From: Mediterranea massiliensis
Lineage (GTDB): Bacteria > Bacteroidota > Bacteroidia > Bacteroidales > Bacteroidaceae
Direction of reading: 5' to 3'
Assembly: GCF_900128475.1 (NCBI RefSeq)
Contig: NZ_LT635838.1
Span: 207,803 to 271,802, forward strand
Length of the DNA: 64,000 nucleotides
Every line of letters begins with the position of its first letter. Positions within the stretch are counted from its first letter, which is position 1. Below the pieces are notes generated by a model. That model had not been told where the DNA came from and ran no database searches. It saw only the letters and a list, made by a program, of their open reading frames with translations. Below are positions 6,618 through 56,629 of the stretch, in pieces. Made by a program: the position numbers and the translations under genes.

Positions 6618-7568
6618 TCAGATGCCCAAGGCCGCACGTATTTTTTCGTAGGCCGCGTCTTTCAGCAGCACCGTTTTCTTTCCGTCCAGCAGGTAGAGCG
6701 ACGGCATCGCTTTCAGGTCGTATAGTGCTCCGGTCTTCACCGCCTCGCGGTCGGTACCCACCGTCCAACCTTCGGGCATGTCGGGCAAGGCTTTTCGCCA
6801 TGCGGCATCATTGCCTTCGGTATAGACGGCCAGGACACTCAACTTGCCGGCCCGTACGGCTTCGGCCAGTGCCGTATCGGCAGCCATTTGTAGCAATACC
6901 TCATGACACGACTCGCACTCCGGGTCGTAGAACATCAGCAGCAGACGATCGTTCTTCACCGGTGTGGTGGCCAGTGTGCGGCGTGTACCGTCGGGCTGGT
7001 AATAGGTAAAGTCCGTAGCCTTATCCCCTACGTTATTGCGCCTTACCAGCTCCAGCTTGAAGCGGTAAGCGGAACGCATCGCATCCGTCTGTGGCAACTT
7101 GCCGAGTAACGCCTCCAGATACATTCCGTAGAGCCCTTCGTTGTAGAAAGGCGAGTTGGGATTAAAGAGATAATCGTCCGCCGTTTGGGTCAAAACCTGC
7201 CGTGCATGTTCTTTCCCGACAAACCCTGCGCACCAGTTTTTCAGACTCTCGCGTGCCAGTTCCTCCGAAGTCGTTCCGTCCTGCAGCAGGGCGATGAAGT
7301 TCACAAAACCCTGCTCCGTTACGTCGCGGTTGTCCACCAAAGTGGTGTCGGCAAAGTCGAAACGCTCCCAATAGTGGGTGAGGAGGTAGGACTTGCGGGC
7401 TTCGGGTTCCGTCAGGGCAGTGGGGATGGTGGGGAAGGGGAACTGTGCCTGTTGCTGTACGACGGTAGAGTCCGTATGGGTACGTTCTTTTGCTTCTGCC
7501 GTATCCGGCTTGGTATGACAAGAAGTAAGGAGTAATATGAGTCCAATATATATATAATATCTAATCAT
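6618..7568 (-). CDS. DUF5106-type thioredoxin-like lipoprotein
   Basis: 316 residues. ATG 7568 gives a short lipoprotein signal (IYIGLILLLTSC), so the protein should be anchored in an envelope membrane facing the periplasm. The N-terminal two thirds resemble the DUF5106 region that precedes TlpA-like domains in Bacteroides. The C-terminal third has a thioredoxin fold with the redox pair CESC in LMFYDPECESCHEVLL and a cis-Pro-type strand LKAMPSLYLLDG. A thiol-disulfide reductase or resistance role is expected. The start is only 11 bp after the stop of the large fimbrial adhesin gene on the same strand, so read-through from the fimbrial operon is possible. Confidence 0.75.
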   Translation of the reverse strand: MIRYYIYIGLILLLTSCHTKPDTAEAKERTHTDSTVVQQQAQFPFPTIPTALTEPEARKSYLLTHYWERFDFADTTLVDNRDVTEQGFVNFIALLQDGTTSEELARESLKNWCAGFVGKEHARQVLTQTADDYLFNPNSPFYNEGLYGMYLEALLGKLPQTDAMRSAYRFKLELVRRNNVGDKATDFTYYQPDGTRRTLATTPVKNDRLLLMFYDPECESCHEVLLQMAADTALAEAVRAGKLSVLAVYTEGNDAAWRKALPDMPEGWTVGTDREAVKTGALYDLKAMPSLYLLDGKKTVLLKDAAYEKIRAALGI

Positions 7569-7579
7569 AATCGTAAAAA

Positions 7580-10500
7580 CTAATTTTTCGGGAATGCATA
7601 TCCGTCGGGTACGTCGCGAACACAACGAATACGGAAGGTTTTTGATGTCAAATTACTATAATTAGGATTTTCAGAACCATATTCGCCACCCCCAGGACAA
7701 TAAATCAATGAAGAACGGGCAAAACCAAATCGCACATTCAAATTACTGAATTGCGTACAACATGCCGCAATAAAAGATCCCGAATCATTAGAATAACATT
7801 CATCCAATAATCCGGCTGCGTTCATTGCAGAAAGTTCCACCAGGTTAGGAACACGCCAATCGCTATATCCACCCTCTGAATACTTCTCATCCTTACATGG
7901 ATTTAGCATTGTTCCATCAAAAGTATATACTTTTTGTTGTCCATTTTCATTTACTGTAACTGTACCCTCATAACCTATTATATCACCTAATCGATAAGTT
8001 CCTCCTAAATATTTATTTGCAACAAAAATACCTTGAGAAAATGAATTTGCAGGATTATCTTCATTATGTACGCCTAAAGATCCATCTACACGTTGACGAT
8101 ATAGATTAGCTACTAGGCGATCCTTAAATTCAATAGATTGTAGAGAGGTATTTTCATGATAAATAAATGATGGATCCGACTCTACAAATGGAGTACTGAT
8201 ATCGTAATCATTACTTGTAGAAGGAAGAGAACGGATACATCGTATGGGTTTGGCAGCCCAATTTCCTGTATAATTATATCCATCAACACCATATGAACCT
8301 CTTTCTACAGCCCAATATACCCGCTTGTCAACTTGATTACTACTTGTGAAATAAAGTGAACCATCCCAAATATAACTTGTTGCATATCCTTTATGTACCA
8401 TTGTAGATTTATCGCCCATATATAATTGGGCAGCATTAGAAAGGGCATTAGAACCAATGCCAATGCGAATATACTCATTTATTGATGGCAAATACCAACG
8501 AACTTCGTTTTCGTCAATAACTCCATTACCATTTAAATCTCTGTTACGTGATAAACAGGCAAAGTAAGCACCACCTATACCAGTATCTCCATCTGATTCC
8601 TCACGAGTACCATTATAAACACTAACCGGAAGTTTATGATTTATGCGATCAGAACCTATTGATCCAAGCCATCCATTATACTTTGGAACAATAAATGTTT
8701 CCCAGTTTTGTGGCAGACCACCTAGTAATTGTATTTGATTACTTCGACCATTTGTGTCACTTAGTCCTGTCGTTACTGAACCGCCAAAACGAATATGAGG
8801 TGTTTCATTATACGTTTCTATACCAAAACCATTCATTTGCAATGTTCTAGAATTATAAAATGTCTGCATAGAAAGTTGCGAGATATACGAATAAATTGTA
8901 CTGAAAGAACTATTACCATCTTTAGACACATTCGAACTCATAGCGATAATCATCTCCCTAGGCATTTTATTGGTAAATACTGACCAATTAGTAACACGTT
9001 CCCCTGTAAGTGGATGACGTAAATAATAATACTCATTTACAAATGCAGTAAAACGTGCTACATATTCATTTTCAGTGTTTGTAGTGACAGTTATACCTTG
9101 ACCCGAATTAAATATATCATTTGGCTGACTGTCACTGGGATAACCTTCACCTCTGTCTGCTGTGGATACAGATTCCTTTTTATAAATCTTCTTAACAACA
9201 TTTCCCATAGCCACAATCACATCATACACATCCATAAGATATCTTGCTTTATCTGCGACTACTTCTCCACCATAAAAATACTTATTAGTCAAATTATCCA
9301 AATTCTCTCTACTCCATTTAGAAACTCCTGGATATTTTGCTATTTCAGTATTCGATTGCGGCCAAAATTCAATCCACTTGTAGTCAAAGCCCTTTAAGTT
9401 ATCAGTTGTATTGCCAGGACCATTCAAAACCGCATTCTTTTTACTTAGTACATCAACACTAGCCTTCATCGCATCAGCGTAAATCTGATACGGTTTCAGA
9501 GTTCCACGTTTATTCTGAACTGTATACGGTTTATCTGACGTTTCAGTTGTATTAGTATAATCCATTGCCTCAGATTGGATAACCAAAATCAAATTATTTG
9601 CAATAGCTTTATTGATATCATCATCTAATTGAGTATTATTATATTCACCAAGACTATTTCCATTAACCTGAAATGACTGTATAGCCTTAGCAATTTGTGA
9701 AAGATTATACTCTAAATATATTTGTTCGTAATGAGCATCCAACTCATACGAATAAGTTGATGCATCATAAGTAAATATCTGTCCTTCTGCTCCTTGCTGA
9801 TATTCGTCTGTTTCTTTTTTTGCTTCTGCAATAATTTTATCCACACCTTTTACTGTAATAGTATAAGTATAGCTACTATTACGCTCAACAGAGAAGTTTC
9901 CCATGGATCCATCAGGTCCATTGCTAAAATCACCTAGATGTATGGTATAACTTACATTCCCCGTATAAGTATTTCCGTCACTGCCAATTCCACTATAAGT
10001 ACCACTGATTACCACGAAAGTACTGTTCTGTGGTGCATTAATCCAAGTTTTTTCCTCTGCTGTAGAACCTGGAGAACCCGTCCATTTATCACGATCAGCA
10101 TATTTCATATTACTCTTATCGGTATTCAAAACTTTCGTTTCCTGAATGTTTTCCGGCATATAAAACGAAAATGAATAAAAACCTTCACTCACAGACGGTA
10201 CATTGGATGAAGCATAATGAATATACTTAATACCTGATTCATCTTCAGAAAAAATATTTTCAGTAAGTTGTTTCTCCTTATGTGTCAGATAACTTTTTAT
10301 TGGAATGTTATATACACGATAGGAAGACGGTATAAAAGTAGCATCAATATCATTACCATACTCATCCTTAGGTTTTTCAACTATTTTAAACCTAATCTTT
10401 GCCATAGCACGATCCATCTTAACAATCACATTATTCTCAGTGCCATTAGAAGTTACAGAACCATCAGCTCTAAATTCTATATTCTCATTATACCCTGACA

Positions 10501-11071
10501 TTAACATTAATGAAGACGAAACAATCTGAATGGGCTGCATATCGCTATTTTCATAAAGAGCACTCCGCAGATTAATGATTTGATCTTTGATCTCTTCAAA
10601 CGATAAACTACCTCCTACTACATCTTCCTGTTTAGCTGTCAGTTCCCAAAAGCCGCCATCCCCGGCCGCTGCACTGGTATTGGCAACAGCTATCAGTTTC
10701 TTTTTACCAGTCGTGGTTTTAAAACTAACATTGTATAAAACCCCGCCATCAACAGTTTTATCTTTTACAAAAGTAACTTTATAACTTTCATCCGTTGCAC
10801 GTGAAGAAACGTAGTGTTCATACGTTCCGTCCTCATGGAAAACAAAGATTGCCAAATTGGTTATATCAGACAAAGAATTATCAGCCCTTGTGTCTATCGT
10901 CACATCCGCAGCCGGCGTTCCCGACAAAGTTAGGGTTACAGTGACCGGCAGCCCTTCCACCACTTCACCGTTGTTCTTCACCAGTTCATCGTCTTTACAT
11001 CCGGACAAGGCAAAACCGACAAAGCCCATCCACAACAGACAAGTATATATCGTATGTAATATTTTCTTCAT
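7580..11071 (-). CDS. large fimbrial tip-like adhesin lipoprotein (DUF4906-like)
   Basis: 1163 residues from ATG 11071 (MKKILHTIYTCLLWMGFVGF), with a lipobox-like LSGC near residue 25. The first ~350 residues show fimbrillin-type features (TRADNSLSDITNLAIFVFHEDG; then a run of short beta strands). Around 838-856 is a Ca-loop-like RDLNGNGVIDENEVRWYL, and near 1073 a WRVPNLVELSAMNAAGLL segment as in lectin-like C-terminal domains of Bacteroides surface proteins. As last and largest subunit of the fimbrial operon it is the probable tip adhesin. The gene is markedly AT-richer than the anchor and barrel genes of the same operon. I assign DUF4906 by resemblance only. Confidence 0.7.
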   Translation of the reverse strand: MKKILHTIYTCLLWMGFVGFALSGCKDDELVKNNGEVVEGLPVTVTLTLSGTPAADVTIDTRADNSLSDITNLAIFVFHEDGTYEHYVSSRATDESYKVTFVKDKTVDGGVLYNVSFKTTTGKKKLIAVANTSAAAGDGGFWELTAKQEDVVGGSLSFEEIKDQIINLRSALYENSDMQPIQIVSSSLMLMSGYNENIEFRADGSVTSNGTENNVIVKMDRAMAKIRFKIVEKPKDEYGNDIDATFIPSSYRVYNIPIKSYLTHKEKQLTENIFSEDESGIKYIHYASSNVPSVSEGFYSFSFYMPENIQETKVLNTDKSNMKYADRDKWTGSPGSTAEEKTWINAPQNSTFVVISGTYSGIGSDGNTYTGNVSYTIHLGDFSNGPDGSMGNFSVERNSSYTYTITVKGVDKIIAEAKKETDEYQQGAEGQIFTYDASTYSYELDAHYEQIYLEYNLSQIAKAIQSFQVNGNSLGEYNNTQLDDDINKAIANNLILVIQSEAMDYTNTTETSDKPYTVQNKRGTLKPYQIYADAMKASVDVLSKKNAVLNGPGNTTDNLKGFDYKWIEFWPQSNTEIAKYPGVSKWSRENLDNLTNKYFYGGEVVADKARYLMDVYDVIVAMGNVVKKIYKKESVSTADRGEGYPSDSQPNDIFNSGQGITVTTNTENEYVARFTAFVNEYYYLRHPLTGERVTNWSVFTNKMPREMIIAMSSNVSKDGNSSFSTIYSYISQLSMQTFYNSRTLQMNGFGIETYNETPHIRFGGSVTTGLSDTNGRSNQIQLLGGLPQNWETFIVPKYNGWLGSIGSDRINHKLPVSVYNGTREESDGDTGIGGAYFACLSRNRDLNGNGVIDENEVRWYLPSINEYIRIGIGSNALSNAAQLYMGDKSTMVHKGYATSYIWDGSLYFTSSNQVDKRVYWAVERGSYGVDGYNYTGNWAAKPIRCIRSLPSTSNDYDISTPFVESDPSFIYHENTSLQSIEFKDRLVANLYRQRVDGSLGVHNEDNPANSFSQGIFVANKYLGGTYRLGDIIGYEGTVTVNENGQQKVYTFDGTMLNPCKDEKYSEGGYSDWRVPNLVELSAMNAAGLLDECYSNDSGSFIAACCTQFSNLNVRFGFARSSLIYCPGGGEYGSENPNYSNLTSKTFRIRCVRDVPDGYAFPKN

Positions 11072-11084
11072 ATTCGTTATAGTT

Positions 11085-12158
11085 TTATTCAAAAGCGGGA
11101 ACTTCCATCTCATGTTCAGTCCATGAGTTAATTTGGCAATATGTATCCAACTCTATTTCTTTCATTCGCATATAAAGTTTATACCATGTATTCCTCTCTA
11201 TCTTAGGCAAGTAAATGGTCTGTTCGTAATCAGAACCATTAAAATTATATTTCACTGTAAGATTATATCTCATTCCTGGATTCACTATTTCGGTCACAAA
11301 CTGTTCATCTCCATACGTGTTTTCCAACAAATAAGGATTATCAAAATCTATTTTTGTAAACGAAGACTTTACACTTTCTATGTCCGTTGGCAATTCTGTC
11401 GTATAAGAAGTTGCAATCGTAACGCCCCCACTATTACCACTCAACAAATCACGATTTTTTGTATAGTCAATAATATCATTATCTACAGGAGTAAACAAGT
11501 ACCCTTTATCAGGAACATTATTCAAAGTAAAACTCTTGATAATCAGTTTACTGGAAGAGGTTCGCTTAGTACAGTAGAGTTCCAACTTTGCTACACACCT
11601 TGTAGCATTAATCGAAGCGTCAAATATAATTTTGTTGCCTTCAACAGACGGAAATGTAGTTGTACCCTCACCTGTCATCGGCACTTTGTTATCACCCTTA
11701 TATTCAGTCAGGACGAACATTTTTCCTTTAAGCTCATCTAACGTTTTTACATCAGAAAAATCTACTGGAGTAGTACTACCTTTACCATCATCCGTATAAG
11801 GCTGGTTTAAGAGTAGATAAATCTTAAACGATTGATTAACATCTATATTCTCTGCTTCTATTTCAGTCTGCAAAGTAGTCTTAATATCTATTCCATCAGT
11901 TCCTACAGGAGTCCATACATTCTGACTGCTTACAACGTATGTGATTAAATTCTCATTATTATCAAAAATCCATAGCTGTATGATATCAGGCTCAGAGTTA
12001 TCAGGTAGCAATTCATCCGCTCTCGTCGTAATATCCAGATTCAGCGTGATGGTCCGCTCCTGTGCAGAAGGTTCTTCCGCATAGGGAGACGCATCGCTGC
12101 ATCCTGCCAGGATGAGCAGCAGAAGCCAGCAGCCGAAGGATATTACTTGTTTCAACAT
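11085..12158 (-). CDS. minor fimbrial subunit (fimbrillin/FimB-Mfa2-like lipoprotein)
   Basis: 357 residues with signal peptide and lipobox (LLLLILAGCSDASPYAEE). The body has the type V pilin pattern: RTITLNLDITTRADELLPD, then IIQLWIFDNNENLITYV, a central variable part, and a last strand INSWTEHEMEVPAFE equivalent to the donor-strand end of the neighbouring subunits. It lies 13 bp upstream of the adhesin start and 15 bp after the Mfa2-like gene, so it is in the same transcript. AT-rich like the adhesin. It may be an adaptor between shaft and tip; which Mfa3/Mfa4 role it takes cannot be decided from sequence. Confidence 0.7.
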   Translation of the reverse strand: MLKQVISFGCWLLLLILAGCSDASPYAEEPSAQERTITLNLDITTRADELLPDNSEPDIIQLWIFDNNENLITYVVSSQNVWTPVGTDGIDIKTTLQTEIEAENIDVNQSFKIYLLLNQPYTDDGKGSTTPVDFSDVKTLDELKGKMFVLTEYKGDNKVPMTGEGTTTFPSVEGNKIIFDASINATRCVAKLELYCTKRTSSSKLIIKSFTLNNVPDKGYLFTPVDNDIIDYTKNRDLLSGNSGGVTIATSYTTELPTDIESVKSSFTKIDFDNPYLLENTYGDEQFVTEIVNPGMRYNLTVKYNFNGSDYEQTIYLPKIERNTWYKLYMRMKEIELDTYCQINSWTEHEMEVPAFE

Positions 12159-12173: not shown

Positions 12174-13253
12174 TTACAAATCCACATTCTGTACCCGTTT
12201 GCTCCATCCCAACACACCGATGGACACGTTGGCATAAGCCCAGGTGCCACCGGAGAGAAAGAAGGAGAGGTCGTAATCGTAGCCGCGGTCCAGAAACTCC
12301 TGACGGGAGTAGCGGTGCAGCTCGTCGTAATTGCTGAGCCGGCCGAGCAGGTCGGGAAGGTTGACCTCGATGACGCGCTTGCCGGTTTCCTTGTGTTCCA
12401 CAACCAGCACTTCGTCGTCGGCCAGATTGTCGTGCGCGAAGATGCGCGAGGTCATGAAGTCGGCATGTCCCATGTTTCCTATGGCCGAAGCACGGCTGCT
12501 GACATCAGGGTCTTGGGTATTCCACGTAACATAGGGTGTACACAGGGCCTTGATGCCGGGGTCTTCGGAGTTGTCATGGTTCAGCCGGATGCTGCCGCCG
12601 GTAATATACAGGTTGTAGTCTTCGATGTCCATCGCTTCGGGACGGTCGATGTCGCGCAGGGTGACACTGATGTTTTTGGTGTTTCTCACCAGCGAGAGGA
12701 TGTGGTAAACGTACTGCCCCTGCTTCACCTCGACCGCTTGGTCGGAAATGGAGTGCCAGAGGGTGTCCAGCGGCTGGCCTTGATGGTTGACAAGCCCCAC
12801 ACCGTCGTACAGCCGGGTATGGTCCAGCGTAATCTTGAGGTCCTCCATGCGGCTGTCCGCATCCAGCTCGGTACGCTGGAAGCTGCCCCGCAGCTGTTCG
12901 TCGCTTTTACGCTGATGTGCCAGTGCCACGAAGCGGTACTTGCCGTCGGGTAGGTCCAGATACATGTTGTAGCCATGCTCCTTCAGGGGCTGTATTTCGT
13001 TGTCGTTGGCCTCGGTGCGGCTGTCGATGTAGTTGCCCTCTTCGTCGAAGATGTAGAGGGTGACTTCGCCCACATGGTCGGCAAACATGTCGGAACGGTG
13101 GAGGTTGTAGTCGTAGACGAAGTTGACATACACGCCCCGTTCGCATCCGTCACGGTCGTCGAAAATGAAGTCGGTACACGACGTGGCGAACAAGCCCAGC
13201 AGACAGCTTGCCAGCCAGCCTGCCTTCAGCATATATTTGGCACAATGGTTCAT
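12174..13253 (-). CDS. FimB/Mfa2-family fimbrial anchor lipoprotein
   Basis: 359 residues, lipobox LLGLFATSC, followed by the family hallmark region DFIFDDRDGCERGVYVNF and VTLYIFDEEGNYID. The C-terminus ends IGVLGWSKRVQNVDL, the conserved last strand of Mfa2 proteins. Mfa2/FimB homologues cap and anchor type V fimbriae in the outer membrane and limit their length. The gene is GC-rich, unlike the pilin and minor subunits around it, and sits directly downstream of the Mfa1-like pilin across a 179-bp gap that carries an inverted repeat. Confidence 0.88.
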   Translation of the reverse strand: MNHCAKYMLKAGWLASCLLGLFATSCTDFIFDDRDGCERGVYVNFVYDYNLHRSDMFADHVGEVTLYIFDEEGNYIDSRTEANDNEIQPLKEHGYNMYLDLPDGKYRFVALAHQRKSDEQLRGSFQRTELDADSRMEDLKITLDHTRLYDGVGLVNHQGQPLDTLWHSISDQAVEVKQGQYVYHILSLVRNTKNISVTLRDIDRPEAMDIEDYNLYITGGSIRLNHDNSEDPGIKALCTPYVTWNTQDPDVSSRASAIGNMGHADFMTSRIFAHDNLADDEVLVVEHKETGKRVIEVNLPDLLGRLSNYDELHRYSRQEFLDRGYDYDLSFFLSGGTWAYANVSIGVLGWSKRVQNVDL

Positions 13254-13432: not shown

Positions 13433-15295
13433 TTACAGATCTACGCCCTGTGAACGCTTGGCCCAGGAGAGGACGTTGATTTCGGCACGAATATAGCCCT
13501 CGGCCTTATCATCGGGACCACCAGGTTTTACGATTTCGGGTTCACCCGGACCGCTGATGCTGTTAATGTTCACTTCATACCAGTTGTTACGCACTACGCC
13601 ATAACGGCCCAAATGCTGTATTCCGTAGGCTTCGCCAGAAGTCCAAGGAGTTTCATCATCGTTGAAATGACGGATAGCGGTAGCGTAATAATAGCTTGTA
13701 CCTTCTTTGTAGTAACGGATAGTACCTACCTGACTCTTAATCGCATTCCATATGTCAACCAAATGACTGGTATAATCAGAACCCCTGTATTCAAGCAATT
13801 CAGAATAGTGCTTATTAGTCTCATCATAAATACCGGCCGAAGCATCCGATTTTATAACCAAATCTGTAGGAACAAGATCTGTTTCAAGAACCAAATTTGC
13901 CTTTTCTATAACAAACGAAATGAAATCCTTAACTGTTCCCATCCCATCAGCACTCGGGATATTAGACTCCTCAGGATATTTTACCGGACTTGCGCCACAT
14001 ATAAAGAAATTCCGTTTTTTAAGCTCTGTTTGGTTACCAAATTTAGTCAGATAATCAGTCTTCAAAAGTACAGAAGTCGTCTGGTCTTGTTCCTGATCGC
14101 TTGCCTCCATTGTATTCTCCAAGCAATAAAGAGCATAATCAGTAGTTGTAGTCTTGTTATCTGCCGTCTGTTCATTCCAACCTGCAGGAGGGATAGATGC
14201 AGAATAAGTGGTAAAATCATTAGAAGTGGCTTCAGTATAGTTATCATCTTCCGCCCAATAAATACGATAATAATTCGTAGAACCATTTCCCGGAATCACA
14301 GTATTTCCGGCAAAACGGCTGACTTTGGCTTTATTTTCTTCGGAAAGTCCCTCCAGATTCAACCAGCCTTCCTTATTAAAACCTGATACATTACGAACCA
14401 ATGCTGTCGATTTATTGGTAACATTCAGTAACCACCCCTTCAATTGTACAACATCACCATAATAAACACTGCCAGAAGTTCCTTTTACATTCTTCTTATA
14501 TTCAGTATATTTTCCATCAGAACCTTTGCTGCCATTCGTAAATCCACTAAGAGTAACTTTAGCCACTACACGTTCTACATAGATACGTGCAGCTTCATTA
14601 TTGAGAGCGTCATTCTGTGTGGGATAAACTTCTACCGGAACCAAAGTCTTGGCCACAACCTCAGTAACCTTATCCTTCAAATTAGAGCCGGGTTTATTGG
14701 ACAACGGAGCATTGCACATTGTAAAATCATTATTATCGCCCGTATAAGTGGTGAGATTCTGATCTGTTAAAGCCGTGGTAAAAGCAGACAACGTGGATTC
14801 CGCAGTAAGTGGTGTATCATTTAATTTCAAACTATGATCAGTTTCATTCACCTCTACCACAGAAGGTGTATTCAGTATGACCAAAGCATACAGCTGCTCT
14901 TCTTTATCCACTTTCGGTGCCTTAGAAACCGTAACGACCTTTTCGGTAACCTGCTGTCCGTTGCCGCCCTGGACTGTCAATCCATTCAAAGAATAAGCAC
15001 TGACGAATGTGGCGTTCACATCCGGACTTGTGTTCACTTTGTCAGCCTTGAAAAAGGCAATCACACCGTCATTAATTATATATTCATTGGCGGTACCATC
15101 TTCGAGGTCTGCACTGCCGTCTTCAGCCCTCGTCATACTTCCGGTAGTAGTAGGCGTATGAATCGCTACCCTTACATACCCCTCCGTTGCATCCGGAGCG
15201 TTTCCTCCCATGTCACCTGCGTCTCCCAGGTCGTCGCTACACGCGGCAAACATGCCTGCCGCCAATAGCATTGCAAAAAACTTCACTTTCTTCAT
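13433..15295 (-). CDS. Mfa1-family major fimbrial subunit (type V pilin)
   Basis: 620 residues from ATG 15295 (MKKVKFFAMLLAAGMFAACSDD), lipoprotein signal with AAC lipobox. After the linker it has the fimbrillin start GYVRVAIHTPTTTGSMTRAEDG and IINDGVIAFFKADK, a long beta-rich body and the C-terminal strand INVLSWAKRSQGVDL shared with the Mfa2 neighbour. In the family, pilin precursors go to the surface as lipoproteins, are trimmed by an Arg-specific protease and polymerise by donor-strand exchange. An alternative ATG at 15346 adds residues ahead of the signal and is unlikely. AT-rich relative to flanking operon genes. Confidence 0.87.
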   Translation of the reverse strand: MKKVKFFAMLLAAGMFAACSDDLGDAGDMGGNAPDATEGYVRVAIHTPTTTGSMTRAEDGSADLEDGTANEYIINDGVIAFFKADKVNTSPDVNATFVSAYSLNGLTVQGGNGQQVTEKVVTVSKAPKVDKEEQLYALVILNTPSVVEVNETDHSLKLNDTPLTAESTLSAFTTALTDQNLTTYTGDNNDFTMCNAPLSNKPGSNLKDKVTEVVAKTLVPVEVYPTQNDALNNEAARIYVERVVAKVTLSGFTNGSKGSDGKYTEYKKNVKGTSGSVYYGDVVQLKGWLLNVTNKSTALVRNVSGFNKEGWLNLEGLSEENKAKVSRFAGNTVIPGNGSTNYYRIYWAEDDNYTEATSNDFTTYSASIPPAGWNEQTADNKTTTTDYALYCLENTMEASDQEQDQTTSVLLKTDYLTKFGNQTELKKRNFFICGASPVKYPEESNIPSADGMGTVKDFISFVIEKANLVLETDLVPTDLVIKSDASAGIYDETNKHYSELLEYRGSDYTSHLVDIWNAIKSQVGTIRYYKEGTSYYYATAIRHFNDDETPWTSGEAYGIQHLGRYGVVRNNWYEVNINSISGPGEPEIVKPGGPDDKAEGYIRAEINVLSWAKRSQGVDL

Positions 15296-15342
15296 AACTG
15301 TAATATATAAAAAATTAATAATAATGTCCTGATTGTACGACG

Positions 15343-16764
15343 TCACAGCCGGTCTAACTCAATGCCGGACAAGTTGCTCACGGCTTCCTCCAGCCCGGCA
15401 TCGGCGGCCCGGCGCAGGCATTCCACCGCTTCGTCGTAACGTCCCTGCATACGCAAGCACACTCCCCGGGCATTGTCGGCCTGCGGACTGCTGCCTGCCT
15501 TGTCCAGATAGGGGCGGGCCTGCTCCGTCAGTCCCTGTTCCAGCAGGGCACAGGCAGCGTTGAGGTTGGCCACCTCGCTGTCGGGGTACATGCGCACCGC
15601 CACATCGAACACCTGCTTGAAGTCATCGCTACCCGGCTCGTAGGTCTGCGCCACGGCAAACATCTCGTCGAGGCTGAGGTTTTGCGGACGGGTGCGAATC
15701 ACCTTTTTCGCTTCGTCCACACTGAAGCTGCGCACGGTGTAGTCGATGCGGTAATCGGTGCGGCGCAGGCCGGGATAGCATTCGGCCAGCAGGGTGGCAT
15801 AGTCCTCCGGATAGCGGCTGCGGATGACGCGCTCCTTGGCATCGGGCTCGCGGTCGCTGTCTATCAGGGCCAGGATGCTGTCGCGGCCGGAGAGCGTGCT
15901 GCCTGCCACGTAGCGGCGAAGACCTTCCCAGTTTTCGGGAACAAAGCGGGTGACGAACATCGTGTCCACAAAGCCGTAGCGCGTCTGTACGTATGCCTTC
16001 AACGCCTCGGTGCGGCCTTCGGCCAGGCGGGTGTTGTTGCGGTAGGTACCTTCGGGCGAAGCATACCCACGGAGGGCGATGCGCGTGATGTGGAAATCGC
16101 GGTCGTGCAGGACGGTATCGATGGAGGCATGTATGCGTGCCAGTTCGTCGGGGTTGCGTCGGTAGGCGGGGTTGATGTCCGTGCGGTTCACCACGAAGTC
16201 CAGATAGGCTTCGCCGCTCAGCGCGCGCCGCTTCTCCACTTCCACCTCCGGGGCTATATAGGCCAGCTGCGGACGGAAAGCCACGTCGGCCCGGTGCACG
16301 GCTACCTGGCTGCCCGGCTGCACTTCGCCACACCCGCAGAGGTCTTCGGTGATGCCCAGCAGGGCGTGGTCCATCCAGTCCTCGTAGAGCAGGGCGGTGC
16401 GATAGTCCACCGTCTGTGTACGTTCGCGGTCGCGACGGACGACGTGCCACGGGGTAACGGCGTAGGTCTGCCGCCCGTTGCGTTCATAGTAGAGCTGACG
16501 CCTGCGGCCCATCACTTCCACAGCAGGCAGTTCCAGTCGCCTGTCGCCGGACTCGAGCTGCGGAATCAGCACGACGGAACGGTTGGAAGCCACCTCCATG
16601 TCCGTGAGGTCGAGCTGCATCCGGACAATGACGCTGTCGCGCTGGCGGTTCACATCCGCCGAACGTACAGCCGCCCCGCTCTGAAGCGTCTGCTGGGCAC
16701 CGAGCGGCAGTGCGGCGAAAAGGCTTCCCATACAAAAGCTATATGTCAAGACAATCCGTTTCAT
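15343..16764 (-). CDS. DUF3868-type protein with OmpA-like domain, fimbrial operon
   Basis: 473 residues from ATG 16764 with a signal peptide (MKRIVLTYSFCMGSLFAALPLGAQ). Residues up to about 180 correspond to the DUF3868 region found in fimbrial operons; residues about 225-330 contain an OmpA-like motif RGYASPEGTYRNNTRLAEGR, expected to contact peptidoglycan; the last ~90 residues look like short helical TPR-like repeats (ANLNAACALLEQGLTEQA). It probably supports the fimbrial base in the outer membrane. It starts 16 bp after the DUF3575 gene and is followed by the pilin gene. Confidence 0.8.
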   Translation of the reverse strand: MKRIVLTYSFCMGSLFAALPLGAQQTLQSGAAVRSADVNRQRDSVIVRMQLDLTDMEVASNRSVVLIPQLESGDRRLELPAVEVMGRRRQLYYERNGRQTYAVTPWHVVRRDRERTQTVDYRTALLYEDWMDHALLGITEDLCGCGEVQPGSQVAVHRADVAFRPQLAYIAPEVEVEKRRALSGEAYLDFVVNRTDINPAYRRNPDELARIHASIDTVLHDRDFHITRIALRGYASPEGTYRNNTRLAEGRTEALKAYVQTRYGFVDTMFVTRFVPENWEGLRRYVAGSTLSGRDSILALIDSDREPDAKERVIRSRYPEDYATLLAECYPGLRRTDYRIDYTVRSFSVDEAKKVIRTRPQNLSLDEMFAVAQTYEPGSDDFKQVFDVAVRMYPDSEVANLNAACALLEQGLTEQARPYLDKAGSSPQADNARGVCLRMQGRYDEAVECLRRAADAGLEEAVSNLSGIELDRL

Positions 16765-16780
16765 AGTTGTGATACCTATT

Positions 16781-17356
16781 TTAGAATACATAAATCAGGT
16801 TGAGGGCAGCCTTGGTAGGGCCCAGGTAATGGTGCGGCTCGTCGTCCTCCAGTTGCTCGCCGCAACGCGGACAGAGGTATTTGTCGGCACGGGAGTAAAC
16901 GTATCCCAGGCCGATGACACCTTCGAGGCTCCAGCGGCGCGACAGCATCCAGTGGTAACCGTAAGCCAGACCCGCACCTACCATCCAGCCTTCGAAGCGG
17001 TGGCCGTCCAGCTGTCCGAAGTCGGTACCGAAGAGTTTGAAGTCCATGTCGATATTGCTCAGATTGTATACGCCACCCAGCAGATGTGCGCCGAAGAAGT
17101 GGCCGTTGAAGCGTTCGCACAGCCAGTAGCGGAGTTCGGGCTGCACCAGCCAGTGCTTCCACTTCTTGTTGTCGTGGAAGGTCCATCCGTTGAAACTTCC
17201 GGACACATCGACAGTCCACCGGGGCGACAAGCCCGCTTCCACCCCGAGGCTGACAGAAGCTGTGGCATCGGAAAGCAGGTTGGTCTTGACCGCCCAATTC
17301 TGCGCGGACAAGGAAAGGCTGGCAAACAGCATCAGCAGGATTAAACATCGTTTCAT
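16781..17356 (-). CDS. DUF3575 outer-membrane protein, first gene of the fimbrial operon
   Basis: 191 residues from ATG 17356 (MKRCLILLMLFASLSLSAQ, a clear signal peptide); an in-frame ATG at 17365 adds three residues. Alternating hydrophobic strands such as WAVKTNLLSDATASVSLGVE, WTVDVSGSFNGWTF and a final ALNLIYVF suggest a small beta-barrel. Proteins of this type head fimbrial operons in Bacteroides. Its start is 56 bp from an inverted repeat bounding a candidate invertible promoter segment, so expression of the whole operon should depend on that segment's orientation. Confidence 0.8.
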   Translation of the reverse strand: MKRCLILLMLFASLSLSAQNWAVKTNLLSDATASVSLGVEAGLSPRWTVDVSGSFNGWTFHDNKKWKHWLVQPELRYWLCERFNGHFFGAHLLGGVYNLSNIDMDFKLFGTDFGQLDGHRFEGWMVGAGLAYGYHWMLSRRWSLEGVIGLGYVYSRADKYLCPRCGEQLEDDEPHHYLGPTKAALNLIYVF

Positions 17357-17411
17357 AGTTTCCATATATGAGAGTGCCTATTTTTCGTTACAAATCAAAG
17401 GTTTGGTATTC

Positions 17412-17432
17412 CCGTTACTTTGCAGGTAACGG
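17412..17432. repeat. inverted repeat left (IR-L) of the candidate invertible segment
   Basis: A 21-bp site of the form ccgttac-N7-gtaacgg with spacer tttgcag. It is the exact reverse complement of 17782-17802, and each copy is itself a palindrome around a 7-bp spacer, the usual layout of a tyrosine recombinase core site (two 7-bp arms around a 7-bp crossover). Confidence 0.85.
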
Positions 17433-17453
17433 AAGATGCAAATTTTTGTCAGG

Positions 17454-17485
17454 CAAAGGACGGGATTTTTTCTATAAAAAACAAA
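17454..17485 (-). promoter_or_regulatory. candidate promoter inside the invertible segment
   Basis: On the minus strand a -33 TTTG (17482-17485) is followed after 20 bp by GTCCTTTG (17454-17461), which matches the TTTG half of the Bacteroides -7 box TAnnTTTG but not the TA. The start point would be about 10-15 bp inside IR-L and ~90 bp from the DUF3575 start codon. If correct, the sequenced orientation is ON. Confidence 0.4.
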
Positions 17486-17644
17486 TAGATGTAATAAATT
17501 AACACTGATTTTGTAAGATATATTATACTTCCTTTTCAACCTGTGGAAAGAGGGAGGGATGACATAAGGAATGTAGACGGATTTGTGTTTCCCAAAGCAG
17601 GCCGCAAATAGGGCTGGAGAGCCCTTCGGACGCTACGATTTTAC

Positions 17645-17732
17645 GTAAAGCTTTGCATTGCCGCACGCAAAGCTTTGCATCGGCCATCGTAAAGCTTTGC
17701 ATCGGCCATCGCAAAGCTTTGCATCTTCGTGT
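17645..17732. repeat. four tandem 22-bp repeats with aaagcttt core
   Basis: Units start at 17645, 17667, 17689 and 17711. Each begins g(t/c)aaagctttgcat, containing the palindrome gcaaagctttgc or a one-base variant, followed by an 8-bp spacer that is cggccatc in two units. A partial fifth unit (gcaaaacg) follows. The array is inside the candidate invertible segment and belongs to the set of 22-23-bp arrays found in several gaps of this window. Confidence 0.85.
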
Positions 17733-17781
17733 GCAAAACGATACGGTGAAAAAGCCTGCCGGGCAAGAGGACAACCTCTTC

Positions 17782-17802
17782 CCGTTACCTGCAAAGTAAC
17801 GG
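17782..17802. repeat. inverted repeat right (IR-R) of the candidate invertible segment
   Basis: 21-bp ccgttac-N7-gtaacgg site with spacer ctgcaaa, exact reverse complement of IR-L at 17412-17432. It ends 12 bp from the recombinase stop codon. As a hairpin in the recombinase transcript it could also act at that gene's 3' end. Confidence 0.85.
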
Positions 17803-17814
17803 AAAATTCACCGC

Positions 17815-18732
17815 TTACCTTAAAAAAACGTGTGACAGGATTTCACGGTTCATACGCCCGATGCGTTCGTCGGTATGGGGCTTGAAATAGGTTTCGGTAA
17901 CTTTGACAGACGAATGTCCCATTGCATTACAGATAAGCTCCGGCTGATAGTTACAATAATTGGCAATGGTGGCCCAACTGTGGCGGGCACAATAGCTGCT
18001 GAGCGAAACCCCTACCCCGGCCCAGGCGCCCAACCGCTTCAGGCTGGCATTGAAACCGCGCAGCGCATTCTGATACTGCCGGTAGGCGGCAACACCCACC
18101 TTATTTATATAGGGGAACAGGTAAGGGGAACGGTCGTCGGTATTCTTCAGGCAATCGATGAGATGCATGGCACGAGGCTCGACCGTAACCGTGAGCCACG
18201 CACCCGTCTTGCGACGACGGTACACCAGGACATTCCCCTGAAGGTCGCACTTCCGCAAATAGGCAATGTCCACAAAGGGGATGCCGCGCAGCATGAACAA
18301 CAGCAGGAACAGCTGGCGGGCCTTCTCCACACCCGATGCTGCCGGCCGGGGGGAGACATCCAACCGACGCCATACCTGCTCGTCGACCGCACGCTTCACC
18401 GTGACCCGGGTACCTGTATATACCCCCTTGAACAAACGGGGACGATAAGGGACATAACCCTGATCGACCGCCCGCCAATACACCGCACGCAACATGCGCA
18501 TGTAGGTGGAGATGCTGTTCCACTGTAACTGGCGCCCCAGCAGATAGTTCTGGAACTCCTTCAACCAACGGGCGTCCATACCGGAAAAGGACAACGGACG
18601 GCCTTCCGTAAAATGGAGAACCCGGTTCAAGGTGCTGCGATAGACATGCGCCGTGCCCATACGCCCTTCGTTCTCCATCTGGAGGACAAGCGAAGCCATA
18701 TAGGCTGTCAAACTTTCTCTTTCATTTTTCAT
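17815..18732 (-). CDS. tyrosine recombinase, probable fimbrial DNA invertase
   Basis: 305 residues, with an N-terminal SAM-like core-binding domain (about 1-100; TAHVYRSTLNRVL) and a C-terminal catalytic domain. Visible catalytic residues: R149 (MLRGIPFVDIAYL), K175 (RRRKTG), R250 in YCARHSWAT (the usual HxxR histidine is a tyrosine here), H273 in MGHSSV and the nucleophile Y282 in TETYFK. Size and sequence fit the Bacteroidales invertase-type integrases next to fimbrial and capsule switches rather than a mobile-element integrase; no other transfer genes are nearby. It lies 12 bp from IR-R, so it most likely flips segment 17433-17781. ATG 18732 is the natural start. Confidence 0.85.
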   Translation of the reverse strand: MKNERESLTAYMASLVLQMENEGRMGTAHVYRSTLNRVLHFTEGRPLSFSGMDARWLKEFQNYLLGRQLQWNSISTYMRMLRAVYWRAVDQGYVPYRPRLFKGVYTGTRVTVKRAVDEQVWRRLDVSPRPAASGVEKARQLFLLLFMLRGIPFVDIAYLRKCDLQGNVLVYRRRKTGAWLTVTVEPRAMHLIDCLKNTDDRSPYLFPYINKVGVAAYRQYQNALRGFNASLKRLGAWAGVGVSLSSYCARHSWATIANYCNYQPELICNAMGHSSVKVTETYFKPHTDERIGRMNREILSHVFLR

Positions 18733-18815
18733 AAATCATCGTTTTTTGGAAAATCAACGGACAAAATAAGAAAAAGAACCAAGAAAATCTTCTATTTTTG
18801 CAAATAAGTATCAAA

Positions 18816-20390
18816 ATGACACCGCTTATGAAATACCCCATCGGAATCCAGAGCTTCGACCGTATCATCGAGGACGGATATGTCTATGTCGACAAGACGG
18901 AACTGATTTACAACCTGACGCACGAGAGCAGCATCTATTTCCTGAGCCGCCCCCGCCGCTTCGGCAAGAGTCTGCTCGTGTCCACGCTGAAGAACTATTA
19001 CCTGGGCCGCAGGGAGCTGTTCCGCGGGCTGGCCATGGAACGGCTGGAGACGGAATGGGCCGTGCATCCCGTGTTTCATGTGGATTTCAATGGGGCTGTG
19101 TTCAGCAATGCCGGGCAGCTGGAAGCAATGCTGCGCGACTATGTGGAAGGGTGGGAAAGGATGTACGGCCTGGTACCTGACAAAGAGTTGGGATTGGGGC
19201 TCCGTTTCCGCCATGTGCTCCGTGCCGCCCACGAACAGACGGGACGCCGGGCCGTGGTGCTCATCGACGAATACGACAAGCCGATACTGGACGTGCTCGA
19301 CGTGGACGCCTCGCTCGAAGACCGGCACCGCAACGTGCTCAAGGCCTTCTACTCCGTGTTCAAGGCGGCGGACGAACACCTGCAGTTCGTGCTGCTGACG
19401 GGCGTGACGAAGTTCTCGCAGGTGAGCGTGTTCAGCGGCTTCAACCAGCCGAAGGATATCAGCATGGACGGACGCTACGAGGCGCTGTGCGGCATCACGC
19501 AGGACGAGATAGACCGCTACTTCCCGCAACCCATTGCCGACATGGCCGCGGACTACCGCTGCACGCCCGGGGAGATGAAGCAGCGGCTGAAGCAGCAGTA
19601 TGACGGCTACCACTTCAGCAAACGGCTGACGGATGTGTACAACCCCTTCAGCCTGCTCAACGCGCTGGACAGTCGCAGTGTGGACGACTACTGGTTCCGC
19701 TCGGGCACACCCACATACCTCATCCGCCTGCTCGCCCACTTCAACGAGAACATCAACGAGCTGACGGGCAAGTATTACCGCCCCGAGGAGTTCGTGGACT
19801 ACAAGGCCGACGTGGAACGTCCGCTGCCTATGATTTTCCAGAGCGGATACCTGACCATCAAGAACTATGATTTTCAATTCAACACCTTCCTGCTGGACTT
19901 CCCCAACAACGAAGTGAAGAACGGCTTCCTGACGATGCTGGCCACGTCGTATCTGAAACCTCAGGAGGAAATGGGCACGTGGATACGCAGCGTGGTCATG
20001 ACCCTCCAGGAGGGCAACACCGACCGACTCCGCACCCTGTTCACCTCGTTCCTGGCCAGTATCCCCTACACCATGCGACGCAAGGAGGGCGAGGCCGAGC
20101 GCGAACGCTACTTCCAGTACACGTTCTACCTCATCATGCGCCTGGTGAGCGTCTACACCGTCTACGTGGAGAAGGCGCAGAGCCAGGGCCGCGTGGACTG
20201 CGTGGTGGAAACGCCGCAGTACGTCTACATCTTCGAGTTCAAGCTGGACGGTACGGCTGCCGAGGCCCTGCAACAGATCGAAGACCGCGGCTATGCCCGC
20301 GAGTATGCCGCCGACACCCGGCAGCTCTACCGCGTGGGCGTGGGCTTCTCGTCGGAGACCGGCACCGTCAGCGACTGGGAATGCCGGTAA
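18816..20390 (+). CDS. AAA ATPase-like protein with PD-(D/E)XK nuclease domain (DUF1703 type)
   Basis: 524 residues from ATG 18816 (MTPLMKYPIGIQSFDRI); ATG 18828 is an alternative. The N-terminal part has the conserved DGYVYVDKTELIYNL and a P-loop-like SRPRRFGKSLLVSTL, then VVLIDEYDKPILDVL as Walker B region. The C-terminal ~110 residues hold the nuclease-like YVYIFEFKLDGTAAEALQQI, a degenerate PD-(D/E)XK core. This is a large paralogous family in Bacteroides of unknown function. A perfect -7 box TATTTTTG sits at 18793-18800, so any start upstream of ~18807 is excluded and the leader is very short. Confidence 0.85.
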   Translation: MTPLMKYPIGIQSFDRIIEDGYVYVDKTELIYNLTHESSIYFLSRPRRFGKSLLVSTLKNYYLGRRELFRGLAMERLETEWAVHPVFHVDFNGAVFSNAGQLEAMLRDYVEGWERMYGLVPDKELGLGLRFRHVLRAAHEQTGRRAVVLIDEYDKPILDVLDVDASLEDRHRNVLKAFYSVFKAADEHLQFVLLTGVTKFSQVSVFSGFNQPKDISMDGRYEALCGITQDEIDRYFPQPIADMAADYRCTPGEMKQRLKQQYDGYHFSKRLTDVYNPFSLLNALDSRSVDDYWFRSGTPTYLIRLLAHFNENINELTGKYYRPEEFVDYKADVERPLPMIFQSGYLTIKNYDFQFNTFLLDFPNNEVKNGFLTMLATSYLKPQEEMGTWIRSVVMTLQEGNTDRLRTLFTSFLASIPYTMRRKEGEAERERYFQYTFYLIMRLVSVYTVYVEKAQSQGRVDCVVETPQYVYIFEFKLDGTAAEALQQIEDRGYAREYAADTRQLYRVGVGFSSETGTVSDWECR

Positions 20391-23461: not shown

Positions 23462-24127
23462 TTACAGATAATTTAATGCCCTATATGTTCTTCGAACTTC
23501 ATCAACAAATTTTTTGTATGAATCCAAACGCATCAAGGATTCAATACTGATTTTATCCCCCATTATTTCATATAAGTCAGCTATCGAAAGCTTATGTCTA
23601 CGATTAGGCAAATCTGAAGTTGCAATTCTAATAGCCTCTTCAATGCATGCCTTCGGATCTGCAATTATTTCTGGATTTCTATCAATTTTTAATTCATGAT
23701 CCGATTTCCTTGTCCCAATCTCATTTTTTAACAATTCCTTATCGGCTAGCATCCAAGCCTCAATCATCCTGACCGGTATAACGGGGGTCAGCAACTTACA
23801 ATAATCTTCATCTGCCTGTTGATTCAAAAGCTGTCTGGCAGGTTCTATTTTATCTTGAATTCGTTCTTCATACGTTTCTCTATCAGCATCCGTATGTATA
23901 GCCAACGTCATTATTCCACGTTTCAGTCCCTCTCCAGAACATTTAACTACATATTCAGGGAATGATAAACCACTCTTACCAACACTTATTGACTGAACAA
24001 ATATATCAATATCCACAACACATTCTGTCAATGCTATTTCTTCAAAGGTCCTAACTATCAGACTTTTTAAAAAACGCTCATCAGTAGTTCCTTCAGTTGC
24101 CAAACCAATAAATATTTGTTTAGTCAT
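23462..24127 (-). CDS. DUF4276-like TOPRIM-type protein, partner of an AAA ATPase
   Basis: 221 residues. The N-terminus GLATEGTTDERFLKSLI carries the TOPRIM-style glutamate (E12) and TD pair; HTDAD around residues 78-82 supplies the DxD acidic pair. This is the pattern of DUF4276 and related TOPRIM nucleases that accompany ATPases in OLD-, PARIS- and AbiL-like modules. The start ATG overlaps the stop of the ATPase gene (ATGA), so the two are translationally coupled. Both are clearly AT-richer than their neighbours, which suggests acquisition by transfer. Assignment to a named defence family is inference. Confidence 0.65.
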   Translation of the reverse strand: MTKQIFIGLATEGTTDERFLKSLIVRTFEEIALTECVVDIDIFVQSISVGKSGLSFPEYVVKCSGEGLKRGIMTLAIHTDADRETYEERIQDKIEPARQLLNQQADEDYCKLLTPVIPVRMIEAWMLADKELLKNEIGTRKSDHELKIDRNPEIIADPKACIEEAIRIATSDLPNRRHKLSIADLYEIMGDKISIESLMRLDSYKKFVDEVRRTYRALNYL

Positions 24128-25530
24128 GCCTTTTCTCCCACCATAATAGATTCATTATCATTCATTCGCATATATTCCATCAAAGAATGTAAAGTCAATT
24201 TCCTCTCCTGTCCCGAAAACTGGATTGACGTCTGAAGCGCATCTTCTTGTTCCAACGGTGTAATCTTAGTGACCAAAATTTTCTTACGAACCCCTTCTAT
24301 CGTTATAACTCTATTCACCATTTCAGCATATGCAATTGTAATACATTTATCAGGCATCATATTATAAATTTCTTTTACAAAAACTGTAGAATGTGTATTT
24401 ACTATAACCTGTCTTAAAGGTGAATCCGGAAAAGCAAAATCAACGGCCAAGTCACGCAACAAAAGGGTTGTTGCCTTTATCCGAAAAGGGTTGATTCCAT
24501 TCTCAGGCTCCTCAAAACAAAGCAAACCTTTATGATGATTATCATATAACAATACACATAATGCCAAAATGCGTAACGTTCCCTCAGACAAAACTCTAGA
24601 TGTATATTTTTTCCCATCAACATCCTGAAGTATAATAATGAACTGTTTATTCTCCACATCATCCAATACATCAACTTCCACAAAGTTAGGCAAAAACATA
24701 TGCAATTTTCTTGAAATTTCTTTCAAGCTATAAGAGTTTTGCTGTTTAATACGAAATAAAGCTGCAGCCATATTTCTTCCTTCGCTATCAATAATATCTT
24801 CACCTGTAATTTTACTAGTAGGCAAACGTAACACTTCAGGATTCAGTTGCAGAAAACGCCAACTCCGCATTTCTTCCTTTGCGGCCAATATATGCTTAAA
24901 ATCAACCGAATCAAAACCACTTATAATAGTTCTTGTCACATTATTCAACGGATAAAATCGCTTTTTTCCCTGAGATCCATCTTGTGGCACAATAACGGTA
25001 GGGATTCCATTGTGTTCTTCTGTAGACATATAGGGAACTTGACGTCTACCGGCCTTCACTTGAGGACGCCAAACAGCCGCAGTATCAGGCGGTAATATTT
25101 TAACCCATTTATCCGTATCATGCTTAATCGTATCAAGCTTCTCATAAACGACCTTGATATCTTCCATATCCGCATTATTTTTAAAACGCTGAAGTTTTAA
25201 TTCATAATGCAAACGTGTATATTTCAATTTTTCCGTAGCACCCCATGTATCCGTTATACTAGGATTGACCAGCATTTCTACAACAAAAGACATCTCAGAA
25301 GCTATTGAATGGTCGTCATACCTTGTAAATAATTCCAAGAGATCTCCCCGTTGTTCTCTAAAGCTTTTTTGTATCTTATCTGAATCAGCCAACGACGACA
25401 GCAATCTTAAAGCATCAAAAAGATTACTTTTACCTGCCGCATTAGAACCCGCTATCACTGTCAAAGGAGTAAAATCCATTTCAAAATTCTGAAAAGACTT
25501 GAAGCCATCAATCTTTATATACGTAATCAT
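24124..25530 (-). CDS. SMC/OLD-like AAA ATPase (possible anti-phage module)
   Basis: 468 residues. Walker A GSNAAGKSNL at 28-37, ABC signature-like LSEGTLRILALC near 315-325, Walker B LLCFEEPENG about 340-350, and an H-switch strand VNTHSTVFVKEI near 385-395, the full set of an AAA15/21 ABC-type ATPase without a nuclease domain of its own. The TOPRIM-like partner is encoded separately, overlapping by 4 bp. A weak -7-like TATCTTCG lies at 25594-25601 on the minus strand. AT-rich with no mobile-element genes next to it. Likely a two-gene OLD/PARIS/AbiL-like defence unit, unproven. Confidence 0.8.
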   Translation of the reverse strand: MITYIKIDGFKSFQNFEMDFTPLTVIAGSNAAGKSNLFDALRLLSSLADSDKIQKSFREQRGDLLELFTRYDDHSIASEMSFVVEMLVNPSITDTWGATEKLKYTRLHYELKLQRFKNNADMEDIKVVYEKLDTIKHDTDKWVKILPPDTAAVWRPQVKAGRRQVPYMSTEEHNGIPTVIVPQDGSQGKKRFYPLNNVTRTIISGFDSVDFKHILAAKEEMRSWRFLQLNPEVLRLPTSKITGEDIIDSEGRNMAAALFRIKQQNSYSLKEISRKLHMFLPNFVEVDVLDDVENKQFIIILQDVDGKKYTSRVLSEGTLRILALCVLLYDNHHKGLLCFEEPENGINPFRIKATTLLLRDLAVDFAFPDSPLRQVIVNTHSTVFVKEIYNMMPDKCITIAYAEMVNRVITIEGVRKKILVTKITPLEQEDALQTSIQFSGQERKLTLHSLMEYMRMNDNESIMVGEKA

Positions 25531-28243: not shown

Positions 28244-29037
28244 AAGTTTTTGGACTTTAAGAATTTATACATGTAGGTATGGCAAAGTTATAAAAACAGT
28301 CCGACAATCCAACACCTCTCCCGGACGGGAACATGATTTTGAAACAAAAACGCAAGAAAATGGTACGGCTTTATAATCCGACACTCGCAGGGAAGCGACC
28401 CGAAGCATCATTCAGCGCGATATACCAAGAGCTGAAAGCCAAACAAAATGAAAGCAAAAGCGCCGTCCGGCTGACAACGCCGTTCCATCGGGAAGCCACA
28501 ACCAACGGAAAAGCACGAACCATTATCGATAATTATGCAGAAAAAAGGCAGAAATAGAACTACATATACACTTTTCCACACCAATCCGGGCGTTTGCCGA
28601 CAGAAAACAAACGACTTGCCGACAGAAAACAATGCTTCCAACCACACAAAACATACGATTTGCCGAGGGAAAACATACGACTTGCCGGGGGAAAAGCGAC
28701 GCTTTCCCCTCGATAAAGCACGGAAAGGGCCCCGTAAGGGAATGCCTACGTTCTCTTTCTACTGTAAACATTTCGATACGCCACTGGCTGTCAGCCGAAT
28801 ACAGAAAATCGTTCGCACGGATGGAAACGGACCGCCCTCCGGCCGGAAAGAAGCGATTCTCAGCCAACAGAAAATACAAAGTGTCAAAACGTCAAACCGG
28901 GGAAAAGGGCGGACCGTAGGCAAGAAAACGGAAGCAAAGCAGAAATATCTGAAAAAAAAGTCGTCTCTTTGCAACTTTGTAGGACGGATGTCCCGTCTAA
29001 CACACAAAGAAACCAAGAAACTAAAAACCGGAACCAT
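28244..29037. other. 794-bp gene-free stretch between divergent genes
   Basis: It contains the GH95 promoter at its left end, a 22-bp-spaced repeat array (28593-28724) and Ts/CTTTG motifs just before the DUF6249 gene (tcgtctctttgcaactttg, about 28962-28980). Short open frames here, such as 28351-28557 on the plus strand, show no signal peptide, no recognised domain and no promoter, so I do not call them genes. Confidence 0.55.
28593..28724. repeat. 22-bp-spaced repeat array
   Basis: The motif ttgccga(c/g)(a/g)gaaaac recurs with its TTG at 28593, 28615, 28659 and 28681, and degenerate members fall near 28635 and 28703, giving a 22-bp step. GTTT or CTTG at the left and AAAC at the right of each unit give it partial dyad symmetry. 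It is located between divergent transcription units. Confidence 0.7.
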
Positions 29038-35868: not shown

Positions 35869-35911
35869 TAACGCTGGAATTCCAATGCCGGCCTTCTTGT
35901 CTCCTGACACG

Positions 35912-36026
35912 GTGCTTCATGAGGGTCTGACACAGTGCTTCATGAAGGTGTAAGAAAGCACTTCGTGAGCCCCTCAGAAAGCACTTCGTCAGAGGGTCAG
36001 GAAGCGCTTCGTCAGAACCCCATCAT
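35912..36026. repeat. five 23-bp tandem repeats
   Basis: The core g(t/c)(g/a)cttc(a/g)t(g/c)ag recurs at 35912, 35935, 35958, 35981 and 36004, exactly 23 bp apart, with ggtctgaca/agggtcagga-type spacers. One unit contains the perfect palindrome gaagcgcttc (36001-36010). The array fills the gap between the convergent acetyltransferase and ExbD genes. Confidence 0.85.
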
Positions 36027-56434: not shown

Positions 56435-56629
56435 CAGTTTGAAGAAAAAAATCATATTTTTCTGTAGAATCGTAAGAAAAGCAAGAAAAAAAGTCTCCTT
56501 TTATCATCAGAAAATGCTTCAAGGCAACTCTATACCTATCTTTTTTTAGAGAGAGTGAACCATCTTTCTCCCTACCTGACGGCACAACATCCTCCACTCT
56601 CCCGCGAGTCATTATTTTTGTTTATCCGC

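Follow-up and report, generated by a model that had tools for sequence, protein, structure and literature searches.

The question posed by this locus of Mediterranea massiliensis is whether the DNA between a recombinase gene and a fimbrial operon acts as a promoter switch that can be inverted by its own recombinase. A first-pass annotation of the window, the 64,000-nucleotide stretch of DNA analyzed here, had described two exact 21-bp inverted repeats of 7-7-7 construction around a gene-free segment of 349 bp, and both parts of that description were confirmed. The operon-proximal repeat (17412-17432, + strand; CCGTTACTTTGCAGGTAACGG) consists of the arm CCGTTAC, the core TTTGCAG and the arm GTAACGG, and the recombinase-proximal repeat (17782-17802, + strand), with the core CTGCAAA between the same arms, is its exact reverse complement. 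In each repeat the two 7-bp arms are complementary and the 7-bp core is non-palindromic. The presumed invertible segment (17433-17781, no strand assigned) has a 21-bp repeat at either end, and no ORF of at least 90 aa in the ORF list of the window overlaps it. We scanned the window for inverted repeats of at least 14 bp lying within 1.2 kb, using 20 dinucleotide shuffles as the control. The 21-bp pair was the longest inverted repeat in the 64-kb window, followed by one of 15 bp, and inverted repeats in the 20 shuffled windows did not exceed 14 bp; the exactness of the 21-bp repeats is far beyond chance. A hairpin is predicted for the 21-bp repeat (-10.6 kcal/mol, z -3.4). A weak terminator-like hairpin with a T run lies 3' of the recombinase gene (17755-17767, - strand), the regional number of such sites being at chance level. 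Scans of the region with sigma-70 and terminator consensus sequences gave counts at shuffle level, and no Rfam matches were found in 5000-30000.

The flanks were also as annotated, with a tyrosine recombinase on one side and an Mfa1/Mfa2 operon on the other. The recombinase gene (17815-18732, - strand) adjoins the segment, has an intact reading frame and encodes a presumed invertase of 305 aa (PF13102, 1e-18; PF00589, 1.5e-6). A PDB sequence search with the protein returned one weak match, the XerC-like 4a8e. Residues R149, K175, R250, H273 and Y282, which we take to be the catalytic residues of the tyrosine recombinase family, are all present; the last four are kept in each of 21 aligned recombinases (window plus 20 relatives) and R149 in 20 of them. 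The recombinase with Q at the R149 position (L053 in genome G132, the same as L026) is possibly an inactive enzyme or possibly an alignment effect, yet its locus retains a repeat pair and an OFF promoter. In genome G094 (one place, recorded as L006, L009 and L038) the recombinase match contains an in-frame TAG, and what is left is a frame of 289 aa that includes the conserved residues. Divergent from the recombinase gene of the window is an AAA-ATPase_like/PDDEXK_9 gene (18798-20390, + strand; PF09820, PF08011) with no PADLOC match. Both parts of a candidate HEC-01 defence system were found as adjacent genes at 23462-25530 (- strand; PADLOC HEC-01B, 1.1e-62, and HEC-01A, 1.4e-131), with Pfam matches to DUF4276 and AAA_21.

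All genes of the operon lie on the - strand. The first encodes a DUF3575 protein (16781-17365; PF12099, 7.8e-76), followed by a DUF3868/TPR protein (15343-16791; PF12984, 2.9e-12) and an Mfa1-family major pilin (13433-15346; NF038041, 2.7e-57, 195.1 bits against a cut-off of 130; also PF15495), the true start of which is probably the internal ATG before MKKVKFF, judging from the sequence. The Mfa2-family anchor (12174-13253; PF08842, 3.6e-52, 178.1 bits against a cut-off of 21.2) is followed by a 357-aa protein without a Pfam match (11085-12158), a probable minor subunit that has weak homologues (23-29% identity) in the corresponding operons of L039, L044 and L046. The last gene encodes a protein of 1177 aa (7580-11113), a probable tip subunit, with a PF06321 (FimA) match barely above the cut-off (23.8 bits against 21.4) and a DUF4906 match below it. 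The operon has both an Mfa1 major subunit and an Mfa2/FimB-type anchor, as in type V (FimA/Mfa1) pilus operons.

Within the segment, a candidate promoter of the Bacteroides type faces the fimbrial operon, as had been proposed (17454-17485, - strand; TTTG at 17485-17482, N20, and GTCCTTTG at 17461-17454). It lies 21 bp from the operon-side repeat, and the orientation as assembled is the putative ON state. Bacteroides promoters carry TTTG at -33 and TANNTTTGY at -7, according to the accessible part of PMC8748976, and the -7 box of the window, GTCCTTTG, departs from TAnnTTTG only by missing the TA. A promoter scan that required this TA did not detect the window promoter; a scan anchored on the repeats did.

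We explored the conservation of this arrangement among relatives. The recombinase was used as a query against 149 genomes of the genus, 136 of which had matches at E <=0.001; many of these matches were to other recombinases of the family, and the nearest was 73% identical. We fetched 20 regions around such relatives, and recombinase, repeat pair and homologues of the fimbrial genes co-occurred in 16 of them. An exact inverted pair of at least 14 bp was present within 3 kb beyond the recombinase in 19 of the 20, the exception (L041) lying at a contig end; counting the window, L006 and the 20 regions, a pair was found in 21 of 22 entries, L006 and L038 being one place. In L051, L053, L054 and L056 the fimbrial homology was limited to the third gene, which matches DUF3575 at about 25% identity. 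Fimbriae appear to be the usual but not the sole target, because in three of the 20 regions (L050, L052 and L055) the downstream gene encodes a large protein with no Pfam match above cut-off and fimbrial genes are absent. Segments in the relatives range from 199 to 985 bp. A taaattaacac-like motif, possibly a regulator site, was seen by eye in mid-segment in L039, L040, L043-L046 and L048, and the window has a similar string facing the other way.

The repeats follow a common pattern of near-constant arms and a variable 7-bp core, with ten different cores among 28 pairs; the search itself, which demands an exact inverted pair, accounts for part of the agreement of the two cores of a pair. Exact inverted pairs adjoin the recombinase in 30 of 31 loci, where L006 and L009 are one place. 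Of 157 genomes of the genus, 70 contain the pattern CCGTTAC-N7-GTAACGG and about 13 the reversed control pattern, the latter as counted from the listed matches. In an order-wide draw of 295 genomes the pattern occurred in nine, three of them members of the genus, and the control in 14; the motif is thus no commoner than chance outside the genus. The repeats had been annotated as specific to this locus, a claim refuted by the identical 21-mer in genomes G076 and G085. As many as 13 sites of the pattern occur in single genomes elsewhere in the genus. We considered whether each switch in a genome has a private core that prevents cross-reaction, and rejected this as a rule on finding two complete TTCTTAG-core pairs 1.3 Mb apart in G085; among the matches listed, cores are also reused within other genomes.

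The placement of the promoter was compared over 28 segments, namely those of loci L007-L036, the best 30 of many recombinase matches, that have a strict exact pair. L018, which ends at a contig end, and L021, whose 15-bp pair includes an imperfect arm, do not have the strict pattern and were excluded; L006, which is the same place as L009 and L038 with an identical segment, was left uncounted. The 28 segments are not independent and form 21 groups by shared 16-mers. The anchored rule called for TTTG (at least 3 of 4 bases), a spacer of 19-20 bp and a second box with TTTG at its end, the whole oriented outward and 15-25 bp from one repeat. Such a promoter was found in 25 of the 28 segments, a count that is descriptive because the rule was set after inspecting these very segments. 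With shuffled ends the count averaged 0.49 and peaked at 3 of 28, with inward reading it was 1 of 28, and with windows slid elsewhere it was 1, 1 and 3 of 28; these three controls offset the post-hoc choice of the rule only partly. The promoter points toward the downstream genes (ON) in three segments, those of the window (L007), L008 and L017, and toward the recombinase (OFF) in 22, while L019, L020 and L023 have no anchored promoter. L008, called ON, has a weaker second candidate at the opposite end (score 16, against 18).

We attempted to read the orientation of the segments by plain DNA alignment, which was mostly uninformative. The window segment aligned with that of L042 in the inverted orientation over a short length (score 41, best shuffle 33), more weakly with L037 in the direct orientation (31 against 28), and marginally with L040, inverted (27 against 26); the remaining segments stayed near shuffle level. 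The inverted alignment with L042 covers the promoter block, where 40 of 53 columns are identical and L042 reads TTTG-N20-GTTCTTTG. L037, the closest relative, has TTTG-N20-AATCTTTG in the same orientation as the window. When the segments of the relatives were aligned with each other, all pairs above the cut had the same orientation except L037 and L042, which were inverted. Homologous promoters that are oppositely oriented between similar flanks are a prediction of inversion.

The sequences themselves show the repeat pair, an uninterrupted recombinase frame, the operon and, among species, a conserved promoter placement in both orientations. From these comparisons it is very likely that the locus is a phase-variation switch in which the segment carrying the fimbrial promoter is inverted by its own recombinase. 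The reading of an invertible fimbrial promoter, already put forward in the first-pass annotation, is well supported because the layout and its varying cores are shared, outward promoters occur ON and OFF across loci, and the promoter block is inverted in L042. Under the proposed mechanism the recombinase would bind the 7-bp arms of both repeats, and strand exchange across the 7-bp core would invert the 349-bp segment in this strain. In the ON state, as assembled, the promoter at 17454-17485 would read over the operon-side repeat into DUF3575-DUF3868-Mfa1-Mfa2-tip; in the OFF state it would face the recombinase gene from its 3' side and could give an antisense transcript unless stopped. Flipping is very probable at the window locus, and this copy looks intact and set ON. 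The ON transcript would start inside the segment and pass through the hairpin-forming repeat. Such repeats are not always neutral, since transcription at the Tsr19 locus was inversely related to how many repeats separate the promoter from the genes, in work cited in the available portion of PMC4747536.

Other explanations of the locus were weighed against this switch. The switch could be ancestral and now locked ON, with a silent or inactive recombinase and the promoter serving as a constitutive fimbrial promoter. The assembled ON orientation is the minority state (3 of 25 callable segments) and the -7 box of the window is off consensus, both of which would fit a locked promoter. The recombinase frame and its conserved residues are intact, however, and the repeats are exact, whereas a pair long out of use would be expected to drift; we judge this explanation very unlikely. 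It is more improbable still, to the point of being negligible, that there is no inversion switch and that the recombinase is an integrase or a leftover from a mobile element, with repeats that serve as attachment sites or form a terminator-like pair of palindromes. Integrases are common among tyrosine recombinases of this fold, and the genome has 32 PF00589 matches. Against an integrase, the order of recombinase, repeat pair and surface genes recurs in many genomes, the promoter orientation varies between genomes, and the 19 window proteins scanned with Pfam include no phage or conjugation protein besides the recombinase.

The recombinase could instead be a global invertase that serves distant pairs, or a distant recombinase could serve this pair; global invertases are reported in B. 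fragilis (Tsr19 and Mpi). Tsr19 inverts both a local and a distant promoter, as described in the part of PMC4747536 available, and the genomes of the genus with up to 13 sites would suit such an enzyme. A scan of this 3.95-Mb genome that tolerated up to 3 mismatches, however, found no further copy of the 21-mer. The shorter pattern GTTAC-N7-GTAAC occurs at five genomic places, which are both window repeats and three on another contig, and those three carry different cores. A global invertase is therefore considered unlikely, and a local switch with its own recombinase remains the preferred reading.

The segment also contains the 22-bp array that had been annotated, a palindromic unit in 3.6 copies (17647-17725, no strand assigned) that, as RNA, folds strongly whichever strand is read (z -3.8 and -5.6). 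The array is not specific to the locus as had been claimed, since related units form arrays at 147.2 kb of contig C20 (81% over 73 bp) and at 444.3 kb of C21 (82% over 56 bp) of the same genome, G000. In the 455 kb of this genome that were covered, 43 of the 65 tandem-repeat rows have periods of 21-23; two regions (L080 and L081) were chosen for carrying such arrays, and the count is 37 of 59 without both and 30 of 48 without the window as well. Merged with the rows of period 44 and 46, they make up 29 places in the 455 kb. A crude ORF test puts 20 of these mostly in non-coding DNA, though it counts 91% of the sequence as coding. The longest palindrome in the units of period 21-23 averages 8.3, compared to 5.8 in shuffles (6.5 at most in 200 shuffles), and 5.7 in 18 units of other periods. 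The period was weaker in smaller samples (10 of 23 rows in G095, 5 of 12 in G146 and 13 of 48 in the fimbrial regions of relatives). Further arrays of period 21-23 lie in the window at 28594-28695, 35904-36016 and 56620-56726, in L080 at 8262-8420, in L081 at 7170-7285, and in others among L082-L099. The arrays form a dispersed class with a palindromic unit that differs in sequence by locus and a near-constant period of about 22 bp, equal to two helical turns.

With so many such arrays elsewhere in the genome, we rejected the idea that the array is a dedicated, locus-specific part of the switch. Arrays of period 22-23 with unrelated units occur in three of 20 segments (7129 bp in total), those of the window, L037 and L038, the last of which (also L009 and L006, G094) carries another palindrome in its period-23 array. 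The arrays might share one function, being bound by a protein or strongly folding, and inversion might shift the array across the promoter as a second layer of control, a suggestion we regard as doubtful. No papers on such palindromic arrays were found in the open-access literature searched, which is not proof that they are unreported. The palindromic arrays of period 21-23 are the commonest tandem repeats in the examined part of the genome and may merit a separate study.

Invertible fimbrial promoters are familiar from E. coli fimS, in which the tyrosine recombinases FimB and FimE invert about 300 bp of promoter-bearing DNA that lies upstream of the fimbrial genes. The window locus would work alike; the fimS pilus system is unrelated, its repeats and promoter type differ, it has two recombinases, and it is not of the same family. 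Invertons of gut Bacteroidota were reportedly surveyed with PhaseFinder by Jiang in 2019. Nearer to the present locus are the Tsr-type switches of B. fragilis, for which Weinacht 2004 is the source as cited in the accessible portions of PMC12632263 and PMC4747536. They are described there as a tyrosine recombinase with a short repeat-bounded promoter segment upstream of genes for surface structures and a -7 box of the TAnnTTTG type, of which the window box lacks the TA. The window locus has the intact adjoining recombinase, the paired repeats and the promoter within the segment. A phase-variable locus of B. fragilis encodes a protein matching a sequenced fimbrial subunit, according to the available text of the 2025 review PMC12632263. 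Tsr19 (BF2766) acts with IVp-I, and its local promoter was reported in the accessible part of PMC4747536 as shifted to OFF in culture; most relatives here are likewise OFF. Unlike at the Tsr19 locus as described in that source, the target here is a full Mfa1/Mfa2 operon, and the genome of the window has a single site pair, whereas Tsr19 also flips a distant promoter.

Invertons of gut Bacteroidota also consist of groups of inverted repeats with embedded Bacteroides promoters, and genes of the FimB/Mfa2 family near invertons were consistently upregulated in carrier-attached cultures (PMC11892184, a PhaseFinder survey, as far as its accessible text goes). Those invertons are supported by reads, whereas the window locus is known from sequence comparison. 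The invertible promoters of resistance genes in Bacteroidales lie directly 3' of an invertase gene and have the -33 TTTG and -7 TANNTTTGY boxes; in the available text of PMC8748976 their cargo is antibiotic resistance genes on integrative elements, and here it is a pilus operon. The repeat motif gave no match in a text search of the literature, and a search for earlier descriptions of invertible Mfa1 promoters in Bacteroides found only general papers, with most subscription papers lying outside that search. Given the phase-variable B. fragilis locus in PMC12632263 and the FimB/Mfa2 genes in the inverton analysis of PMC11892184, the locus is of an already documented kind, the recombinase-adjacent invertible promoters of Bacteroides.

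What is added here is the detailed anatomy of the locus, its predicted ON state and the promoter-placement rule over 28 loci. The locus adds an intact and apparently single-copy pilus switch. The rule, a promoter 15-25 bp inside one repeat and reading outward, would allow an assembly to reveal whether such a switch is ON or OFF, as called over 28 loci in 21 groups, and the ratio of 3 ON to 22 OFF suggests that assemblies usually capture this switch family in the OFF state.
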